Source of the DNA: an uncultured Saprospiraceae bacterium
Lineage (GTDB): Bacteria; Bacteroidota; Bacteroidia; Chitinophagales; Saprospiraceae
DNA length: 64,000 bases
Direction of reading: 5' to 3'
Assembly: GCA_937995755.1 (NCBI GenBank)
Contig: CALKJD010000011.1
Coordinates: 1-64,000, forward strand
A program made the translations under genes and the position numbers. Shown piece by piece: positions 61,210-63,917 of the stretch (position 1 is the first letter of the stretch; the number at the start of each line of letters is the position of its first letter). Below the pieces are notes generated by a model, which saw nothing but the letters and a program-made list of their open reading frames with translations, had not been told where the DNA came from and searched no databases.

Positions 61210-61536
61210 ATGGAAGAAATAACAGTAACAATAATAGATAGAGAAGGAGAACCTCATGAGATAGAAGTACCCCTCGGTGTTGACCTCAACATGATGGAAG
61301 TAGCCAAAGCGTCTGAACTACCCGTAGAGGGTACTTGTGGAGGAATGGCATTATGTGCATCTTGTCACTGCTATGTAGAAAGTGATCATGATATTTTTAA
61401 TAGGTCAGATGACGAAGAAGATATGTTAGACCAGGCTTTCTTTGTTGAAGATAATAGTCGTCTCGGTTGTCAGATAAAAATTCGAGAAGATATAAATGGC
61501 TTAGTCGTAAGATTGGCTCCAGTGAATACAGACTAA
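61210..61536 (+). CDS. 2Fe-2S ferredoxin (adrenodoxin type)
   Basis: Small electron carrier. The 108 residues have the plant/adrenodoxin-like fold with cluster ligands in G-T-C-G-G-M-A-L-C-A-S-C-H-C-Y (first three Cys of the C-x5-C-x2-C pattern, about residues 38-47) and the fourth in S-R-L-G-C-Q-I (about 85). The acidic loop between (SDHDIFNRSDDEEDMLDQAF) is the partner-docking region of this class. No adjacent reductase or oxygenase indicates its partner. It is convergent with the methyltransferase gene. Confidence 0.92.
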   Translation: MEEITVTIIDREGEPHEIEVPLGVDLNMMEVAKASELPVEGTCGGMALCASCHCYVESDHDIFNRSDDEEDMLDQAFFVEDNSRLGCQIKIREDINGLVVRLAPVNTD

Positions 61537-61568: not shown

Positions 61569-62060
61569 TCAAAACAACTCTCCTTGAATTCCGAAGCTAT
61601 CTGGGTTTTCCAATGCCAATAATTGTTGCTTGACATGAAGACCAAGTGCAAACCCTGTTAATGCTCCGTTAGCCCCAATCACTCTATGGCATGGTACCAC
61701 GATTGGGATTGGATTTTTACCATTGGCCAACCCTACTGCTCTCGATGCTCCTGGACTATTGAGGTGTTTAGCTATGTCACCGTATGACCTCGTTTGACCA
61801 CATGGTATGGTAACTAGATAGGACCATACGGATTTAAAAAAATCACTATATCCATCCCAATCAAGAACTACTGTAAACTCCTTTCGATTCCCTTCAAAAT
61901 ATTCTTTAAGTTCTTGCGCTGTTTGCTCAGTAAAAGTATTTGATATTCTCGATTCTTCTTCTTTTTTTTGGCTCAGCACCTTAATCGAACTTAGACCTGT
62001 GTCTGATGCTTCTATGAGCAAATGACCAATGGGGGACTCTATGACTTGGGTATATTCCAT
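61569..62060 (-). CDS. ogt: Methylated-DNA-[protein]-cysteine S-methyltransferase
   Basis: Suicide repair protein moving an alkyl group from O6-alkylguanine to its active-site Cys. The 163 residues contain the DNA-binding helix region P-C-G-Q-T-R-S-Y-G-D-I-A and the active site P-I-V-V-P-C-H-R-V-I-G (Cys124), followed by G-x-L-T-G-F-A-L-G-L. The length and absence of an Ada N-terminal domain indicate the Ogt/MGMT form. Its ATG overlaps the previous gene's stop codon (TAATG), so translation is coupled to the M90-like gene. Confidence 0.95.
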   Translation of the reverse strand: MEYTQVIESPIGHLLIEASDTGLSSIKVLSQKKEEESRISNTFTEQTAQELKEYFEGNRKEFTVVLDWDGYSDFFKSVWSYLVTIPCGQTRSYGDIAKHLNSPGASRAVGLANGKNPIPIVVPCHRVIGANGALTGFALGLHVKQQLLALENPDSFGIQGELF

Positions 62061-62905
62061 TACAATAGACTCAACTGATCGGCGCCAAACTGTCTTACTA
62101 GTCTATCAAAAACATCAGGGAACATTGAGTTAAATCTACGTGGATGTGTAAAAAAATAATTGATTACTACTGTAGGAATATCTGTCTTATTAAATCCAAT
62201 CGTCTTCAATATTTTATCTTGAGAATGGTGACCCAGTTCCTCTAATTGCTCCCAAGTAATATGATCTAAATATGTAAAATCTTCTTTAGGAAACACACGC
62301 TGAAATGCTTCTGCATATCCGTGCATTGCAATATTATAATGTTCCTCAGGATTGATCATTCCAGGAATAAGATGCTCTAGCGAAAATATAAATACACCAT
62401 CTTCTATATCTGTTTCAACGGTATGTAAAAATTGATATCTAGGCGTCGGAAAAGGGTGCTTATATAAATAGACTCTATCCATATCACCTAACAAATAGTC
62501 TTTCTTCGACATCATCATCTTCACGGCATTAGACGCTACTATGGCTTGAATGTCATCTGGTACCGCGTGGTGCTCACTACCTACGCTTGCAAAAGCTCTT
62601 CCGTGCATATACATCACCAGTCTATTATCGTATTTCTGTCTTTGGTCAGGATGTAATGACTTGTAGTATGGATCATATTTTTTAAGCCATGCAGATATCG
62701 GAGGATCTAATTCTACAGGGTTGCGTTCATTCCACCAAAAATCAATCTGTCCCTGAAAAATCACCACTGCCGTCGCTATTACTAATGGAACCAAGATCCA
62801 AATCATAGCACCTTGGTAACCCAACTCATAACTTAGGTATAATATGCCTAGTATAGTCAATGCAATAGGTAATGACAGTATTCTTGATAGAGAGTGTATT
62901 CGCAT
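62060..62905 (-). CDS. Membrane protein related to M90 (MtfA-type) zinc peptidases, active site degenerate
   Basis: A 281-residue protein with two N-terminal membrane segments (about 10-28 and 33-50). A domain then follows the order of M90 peptidases: W-L-K-K-Y-D-P-Y-Y-K-S-L-H-P-D-Q-R-Q-K-Y, then an I-V-A-S-N-A-V segment, V-F-I-F-S, and at the end V-V-I-N-Y-F-F-T-H-P-R-R-F-N-S-M-F-P. The position of the zinc-binding H-E-F-A-H reads H-G-Y-A-E (about residues 195-199), so the catalytic Glu and the second His are missing. A regulatory or binding role is more likely than peptidase activity. It is encoded just before ogt with TAATG overlap. Confidence 0.65.
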   Translation of the reverse strand: MRIHSLSRILSLPIALTILGILYLSYELGYQGAMIWILVPLVIATAVVIFQGQIDFWWNERNPVELDPPISAWLKKYDPYYKSLHPDQRQKYDNRLVMYMHGRAFASVGSEHHAVPDDIQAIVASNAVKMMMSKKDYLLGDMDRVYLYKHPFPTPRYQFLHTVETDIEDGVFIFSLEHLIPGMINPEEHYNIAMHGYAEAFQRVFPKEDFTYLDHITWEQLEELGHHSQDKILKTIGFNKTDIPTVVINYFFTHPRRFNSMFPDVFDRLVRQFGADQLSLL

Positions 62906-63068: not shown

Positions 63069-63917
63069 TTATAAATGAGTTTTAGCCGCTTGTATCACTG
63101 GTGACTCTGATGCTCCATCACGTGTTATGTATGCAATGATTTCGAGGTGATCAAGATCATATAGAGGTAATGCTGTAGAAGGGATATCAAAAGTATAATT
63201 CTTACTAATGATTTCTCCTCCCACTAAATCTGATCCCAATATATCACCTAGTGGTGCAGTAAACATATGGCGAAGTACATGTTCGTGTTCGTAATCTTCT
63301 AATATATTACCATTCTCTTCTTGCACATCTTCTATTCCACCTTGAGTTAAAGCTACCACAATATTATATCCACCCGCCAAATCTACTATAGGAGTGAGAT
63401 CCACTTCTACTGATAATACTCCTGCTGCTTCACTTGCACTAAGGTCGATATTAATCTCTGCTGTTTCTGCTAATTCTTGTTGAATGAGAGGCTCCCAATC
63501 ATCTACATCAAAAGCTAAAAATGGAGGACCATCAAACAATCTACGATTGATAGCAGCAGCAGGCTTACCTAGAAAAGGTGTATTACTTTCTATTACACGT
63601 GAAAATTCTGTGCGGAAGTCATACTTACTCTCCGCTAAAGGTTGAGTAAGGAAGCTACCGTGAATGGCCATTACTACTAACTGTTCTCCATATTCACCCA
63701 ATAATCTTTTAGCTTCTGCAGCTCCTGTTGGACAATTAGGACACTTAACACCTGTTAGCTCTTGTAAGAGCACTACCCTTACTGTAGAGTCGGTAGGATT
63801 GGGATCTATTGGTCCTGTTTGCCCCATTGGTATTACTACCGGTACTTCATCACATGACACTAAAGTCACACCTAGTATGATGACAAAACAGAGTAATAGT
63901 TTATTTAAAGTAGCCAT
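63069..63917 (-). CDS. Omp28-like lipoprotein with CxxC motif
   Basis: A 282-residue lipoprotein with lipobox L-V-S-C (Cys22). A thioredoxin-like part starts V-L-L-Q-E-L-T-G-V-K-C-P-N-C-P-T-G (CxxC about 59-62), followed by V-V-M-A-I-H-G-S, and an Omp28-like beta domain (about 155-280: N-I-V-V-A-L-T-Q-G-G, Y-E-H-E-H-V-L-R-H-M-F). It resembles the Omp28-related protein family seen next to other T9SS-related lipoproteins. It has no T9SS tail, unlike the CSNC protein at 53652. Likely outer-membrane-anchored; function unknown. Confidence 0.82.
   Translation of the reverse strand: MATLNKLLLCFVIILGVTLVSCDEVPVVIPMGQTGPIDPNPTDSTVRVVLLQELTGVKCPNCPTGAAEAKRLLGEYGEQLVVMAIHGSFLTQPLAESKYDFRTEFSRVIESNTPFLGKPAAAINRRLFDGPPFLAFDVDDWEPLIQQELAETAEINIDLSASEAAGVLSVEVDLTPIVDLAGGYNIVVALTQGGIEDVQEENGNILEDYEHEHVLRHMFTAPLGDILGSDLVGGEIISKNYTFDIPSTALPLYDLDHLEIIAYITRDGASESPVIQAAKTHL

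Follow-up and report, generated by a model that had tools for sequence, protein, structure and literature searches.

A protein with the layout of an M90 metallopeptidase, two membrane helices and the motif HGYAE in the place of HExxH raises a simple question: is it a single broken peptidase, or does it belong to a family which has lost its zinc site and is still maintained? A related question is whether its overlap with an ogt gene, pointed out in a preliminary description made from the sequence alone, has any functional meaning. The gene is found in a window of 64,000 nucleotides, the whole stretch of DNA we have analyzed, from an uncultured Saprospiraceae bacterium (contig CALKJD010000011.1). 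We call this protein, and its relatives without a complete zinc site, pseudo-M90. The features of the locus are the following:

62060..62905, minus strand: pseudo-M90 membrane protein, 281 aa, stop codon included in the coordinates, ATG start
62759..62890, minus strand: two-helix membrane hairpin, residues 6-49 (helices of the model; hydropathy and charge over 95 relatives)
62723..62749, minus strand: conserved juxtamembrane stretch QIDFWWNER, residues 53-61 (Q53 in 83/95, I54 in 89/95 and W57 in 89/95 sequences)
62078..62713, minus strand: M90 (MtfA-type zincin) domain, about residues 65-276 (Pfam match from 65; structure match 67-281)
62393..62458, minus strand: conserved segment HPFPTP...HTVE...EDGV, residues 150-171, which leads into the edge strand and contains the invariant F152, H161 and E164
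62309..62323, minus strand: residues 195-199, the degenerate zinc motif HGYAE, where catalytic relatives have HExxH
62201..62203, minus strand: T235, in a column which is Tyr in 31/31 catalytic M90 of Saprospiraceae
62159..62161, minus strand: N249, at the position of the third zinc ligand, which is Glu in 31/31 catalytic relatives
62058..62062, minus strand: TAATG, the pseudo-M90 stop overlapping the ogt start, as read from the sequence
61569..62060, minus strand: ogt-type methylated-DNA--protein-cysteine methyltransferase, 163 aa, PCHRV intact

The assignment of the protein to M90 stands. It matches Peptidase_M90 (PF06167) with 36.6 bits (E 4.9e-9), above the cut-off of 26.2, and no other Pfam family is matched up to E 1. 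The predicted model, built from 79 aligned sequences, has a mean pLDDT of 94.7. Its best matches among solved structures, over 183-184 residues, are the entries 3dl1 (Z 15.8, rmsd 3.0 over 183 aligned residues) and 3khi (Z 15.4) of MtfA (Mlc titration factor A, PF06167, MEROPS M90), with which it has the fold of the soluble domain in common. The Pro-Pro endopeptidases PPEP-1, PPEP-2 and PPEP-3 come next (Z 8.9-10.8) and share the zincin subfold. Lower-ranked matches include zincin domains of a listed toxin. Searches of solved structures by sequence are weak: the single protein gives no match, and a profile of the family finds MtfA at E 0.58 and 1.7. The kinship with M90 thus rests on Pfam and on the fold. 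Catalytic M90 and pseudo-M90 also share structural residues, such as F152, S175, N191, F252 and P263.

The two membrane helices previously proposed are present in the model, at residues 6-28 and 31-49, and both have a mean hydropathy of about 2.1 over the 95 relatives. This hairpin sets pseudo-M90 apart from MtfA. The N-terminus carries more positive charge than the interhelix loop in 88 of 95 pseudo-M90 sequences. According to the positive-inside rule, the M90 domain should therefore be cytoplasmic, and the protein would be placed in the inner membrane with this domain on the cytoplasmic side.

The zinc motif may be compared with those of two further M90 proteins which this genome encodes, HEFVH and HEMAH. 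The alignment places HGYAE on these motifs: H195, G196 and E199 take the place of H, E and H, as had been suggested. The third zinc ligand, a Glu which we take to be E212 in MtfA numbering, is N249 in the window protein, and the catalytic Tyr, presumably Y205 of MtfA, is T235. HExxH, third-ligand Glu and Tyr, which characterize catalytic M90 proteins such as MtfA, are all absent from its sequence. They are all kept (H, E, H, E and Tyr) in 31/31 catalytic relatives from Saprospiraceae, which were chosen mostly as best-scoring.

The same loss is found throughout the family. Among 136 distinct pseudo-M90 domains, none has all three zinc ligands, 8 have two, 95 have one and 33 have none. The first His (H195) is kept in 99 of these domains, Glu196 in 78, the third-ligand Glu in 10 and the second His in 2; Tyr is found in the T235 column in 29/136, against 31/31 in the catalytic relatives. 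A complete HExxH can only be read in two (L016 and L111) of 95 pseudo sequences, both without the Glu ligand. The earlier idea of a pseudo-peptidase may be extended, on these residues, to the whole family, and peptide cleavage by its members would not be expected. The exact motif is less general: HGYAE or HGFAE is a trait of the window's genus, present in 4/4 genomes, while the wider clade has mostly H[A/G]xxE. There is also a charge split at positions 196 and 199: domains have either Glu196 with Lys or Arg at 199 (56 of the 78 which have E196) or a residue other than Glu at 196 with an acidic one at 199 (45/136).

Pseudo-M90 is found in practically all Saprospiraceae genomes sampled. A search of the order matched 36 of them, the window's own included; one Saprospiraceae genome without a match (G299) appears among the non-matches listed, 86 more being unlisted. 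In the search for relatives, 34 of 36 other Saprospiraceae genomes have a strong match (E 2.2e-16 or better). The two remaining ones, G011 and G012, have only weak matches, and the single PF06167 match of each is a high-scoring M90 (8.3e-72 and 3.3e-25). We have also read 40 extra Saprospiraceae places, taken in handle order from low-scoring PF06167 matches: 39 are pseudo, all with H161 and E164, and one is catalytic. Outside Saprospiraceae, 56 genomes of the order were matched and the best place was fetched from 55 (all but G204). The dead form was not seen there: HExxH is present in 54/54 readable best matches. This count covers one place per genome (two in G041), where some genomes have as many as three additional matches. 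No dead motif appears at class level either, with HExxH in the 14/14 loci read from a larger set of class and phylum matches.

For comparison of loci we have used the best 80 relatives of 152, picked partly with sequence patterns, one of which covers H[EGA]Y; together with the window's own locus they make 81. By their record titles, on which the family name Saprospiraceae is based here, they come mostly from Saprospiraceae, including Aureispira, Portibacter and Phaeodactylibacter; Saprospirales, Bacteroidota or Bacteroidia bins and one Chitinophagia are also found. All 40 pseudo rows of a tree built on 74 M90 domains group into a single clade (support 100/98). Pseudo-M90 is a monophyletic family present in nearly all sampled Saprospiraceae genomes, rather than an isolated broken gene.

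Within the window's genus, purifying selection acts on the gene. NG86 dN/dS values are 0.024, 0.030, 0.068 and 0.031 in four of the six pairs of genomes, the other two giving no dS. The dS of these four pairs is saturated (1.8-3.0), so purifying selection is all that we claim. Loss of the zinc site goes beyond chance, because it is found in 136/136 distinct relatives and selection of this kind maintains the gene in the genus. A conserved, non-random loss of the zinc motif is also described, in a 2013 survey (PMC3650047), for zincin-like proteins with a substituted HExxH, such as CLCA, and for other pseudometallopeptidases, which belong to families other than M90.

The invariant residues of pseudo-M90 lie elsewhere in the protein. 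F152, H161 and E164 are present in 136/136 domains, R95 in 129 and D118 and D169 in 127 each. When 224 columns are ranked by relative entropy, the top three are H161, W57 and R95, in this order, with E164 in seventh place and H195 in ninth; the old catalytic columns 196, 199, 235 and 249 rank 58, 126, 122 and 106. Columns outside the segment of H161 and E164 are equally constrained (W57, R95, W218 and D118), which tells against the binding role favored below. In the model, H161 and E164 lie between a strand at 144-148 and the edge strand at 171-175, E164 being part of a short strand at 163-166. PPEPs have an S-loop and an edge strand before the active-site helix, and in PPEP-3 the S-loop, which is the segment before the edge strand, closes over the substrate, which is fixed by the edge strand (PMC12828418). 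By analogy, the H161/E164 segment of pseudo-M90 may correspond to this S-loop, and both residues would face the old cleft. The analogy is a distant one: identity in structural alignments is 7-9%, and PPEPs are secreted and catalytic, unlike pseudo-M90.

The His-x-x-Glu motif formed by H161 and E164 is not exclusive to pseudo-M90. Both positions correspond to Gly in 30/31 catalytic relatives from Saprospiraceae, but a group of catalytic M90 from other Bacteroidota (L155 and L189-L202) has the motif, as His-x-Gly-Glu, in 15/15 cases. Unlike pseudo-M90, all 15 have an intact zinc site (HExxH and Glu); their Tyr column is not uniform. A fully supported branch separates the His-x-Gly-Glu type and the pseudo clade from the FVHLxD type. 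The presence of the motif beside an intact zinc site argues that His-x-x-Glu probably outlived the peptidase site. The simplest reading of these sequences is that it is older than the loss of the zinc site, with a shared origin in pseudo and catalytic M90 as a likely corollary; convergence is possible, since the tree leaves the nearest sister open. One protein, L155, has His-x-x-Glu together with a full HELAH and Glu, and its genome (G044) is the only one sampled of its family. This protein seems to represent the stage which preceded the loss of the zinc site. We had considered H161 and E164 as a new site made after the death of the peptidase, an idea which was dropped, as catalytic relatives carry the same motif.

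The order of loss may also be followed in the tree. The full alignment excludes the fragments L162, L163, L166 and L173. Deep pseudo branches (L024, L027, L028, L031 and L168) have kept the Glu ligand and lack the second His. This suggests that the second His was lost before the Glu ligand, although L016 and L111, which have the second His and no Glu, fit poorly.

We are highly confident that the protein is a conserved non-catalytic M90, spread over the Saprospiraceae. Binding or regulation is the best explanation for a dead M90 held at the membrane whose cleft segment is one of its most constrained parts, and on balance we favor a role of this kind, with the protein tethered to the membrane and probably facing the cytoplasm. 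Its ancestor would be an M90 metallopeptidase, probably already with His-x-x-Glu, whose zinc site may have been lost at or near the base of Saprospiraceae while the protein was kept. The substrate side of the cleft (edge strand, preceding loop, H161 and E164) would still bind a peptide or protein segment, and pseudo-M90 could act as an adaptor, a sequestering protein or a regulator. A bolder version is that a metallopeptidase has turned into a near-universal membrane receptor of Saprospiraceae, whose older His-x-x-Glu site binds a cytoplasmic ligand or processes it by means of a new metal site. We offer this version tentatively, as it is rather doubtful in its full form.

The subject seems to be little described: few pseudopeptidases appear to be known which are kept by a whole bacterial family. 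The table of the 2013 survey gives 100% HExxH for PF06167 (PMC3650047). In a 2024 review of pseudometallopeptidases, a term search finds no 'M90', and bacteria or prokaryotes in four places, three of which are references (PMC11266112). No description of the Saprospiraceae branch was found in the literature searched, where subscription journals are thinly covered. The label 'zinc-dependent peptidase' is misleading for these genes. A His-x-x-Glu motif shared by proteins with and without a zinc site also means that its mutation can probe roles of metallopeptidases beyond cleavage.

Other explanations have to be weighed. The protein might have a remodelled metal site, formed for example by H195 and E199 (HxxxE) in the window's clade together with H161 and E164, and be an enzyme or a metal sensor. 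The invariance of H161 and E164 in the 136 domains agrees with this, as do the 99 domains in which H195 is still His; this residue is kept in 41 of the 45 domains with an acidic 199 and no Glu196. Nevertheless, position 199 is Lys or Arg in 56 of the 78 domains with E196, and position 195 is Tyr in 29 of them, so no common metal site includes these positions. Besides, H161 and E164 coexist with an intact zinc site in the 15 catalytic relatives mentioned above and therefore did not arise as its replacement. We consider a remodelled site unlikely.

Pseudo-M90 might instead regulate an active M90 paralogue, through competition for the substrate of the latter or through mixed oligomers. Pseudopeptidases sometimes regulate their active cousins (PMC11266112), and the window's genome has two M90 genes with intact motifs. 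Such a paralogue does not appear to be needed: G002 (97% complete), G004 and G005 (100%) have the pseudo form and a single low-scoring PF06167 match, which makes this explanation quite improbable.

A third proposal, derived from the pairing noted in the preliminary description, is that pseudo-M90 works with Ogt, being translated together with it and serving the repair of alkylated DNA as an anchor at the membrane or as a sensor. The downstream gene is a genuine ogt-type gene (PF01035, PF02870 and TIGR00589, with PCHRV kept), and the overlap of stop and start has been confirmed. A profile search finds ogt in 14 of the 81 loci: directly downstream, overlapping or close, in 10, divergent and adjoining upstream in 3, and 1.6 kb away in L117. 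The 13 adjacent cases are a lower bound, as 2 loci have less than 600 bases downstream of the gene and 4 less than 900 upstream. Several genera are involved, including records named Aureispira and Portibacter. However, all 13 belong to one clade of 41 rows (SH-aLRT 95 in a quick tree), in two arrangements. A search for ogt in seven genomes shows two which retain pseudo-M90 without it: the best match in G002 is only 34% identical and contains a stop, so there is no orthologue, and in G020 nothing is matched. The adjacency of the two genes is thus real, and its restriction to one clade and absence from these two genomes point to an inherited gene order, not a required partnership. Values of dN/dS for ogt which involve L065 are unusable, owing to an indel. 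In the G002 locus (L064, 3950-4900), TAATG still follows pseudo-M90 without an ogt orthologue, and the start there is TTG. The neighbour clusters of the 81 loci show no gene which accompanies pseudo-M90 throughout the family, the largest clusters being ogt (13, counting L117 and missing L070) and a sigma factor (12), followed by tgt-like and permease-like genes (9 loci each), all but ogt named by eye. A functional pair with Ogt is not supported and seems very unlikely, and neither Ogt nor an active paralogue of M90 would be a required partner of pseudo-M90.

It seems equally improbable that the protein is still a peptidase, with catalytic residues missed by the alignment. The first His and Glu196 do persist in many domains, and HExxH in L016 and L111, but the second His and the Glu ligand are rare, the two never occur together with the first His, and L016 and L111 have no Glu ligand. 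Finally, a decaying pseudogene or neutral remnant, suggested by the loss of the catalytic site, can be dismissed, given the open frames, the near-universal presence in Saprospiraceae, the dN/dS far under 1 and the invariant columns in alignments with a mean column identity of 37-39%.

Other gene orders are found around pseudo-M90. In another part of the tree, the nine loci with tgt-like genes (L080, L086, L087, L089, L090, L094, L098, L106 and L109) have a stable order: the gene is divergent from the tgt-like gene, with the permease-like gene beyond, these names being given by eye. In the window, an Omp28-like protein with CPNC (by eye) is coded at 63069-63917, upstream of pseudo-M90, a position found in 4/4 genomes of the genus. 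A 2Fe-2S ferredoxin-like gene (PF00111) at 61210-61536 is convergent with ogt, and its counterparts in the three other genomes of this genus have 89-91% identity.
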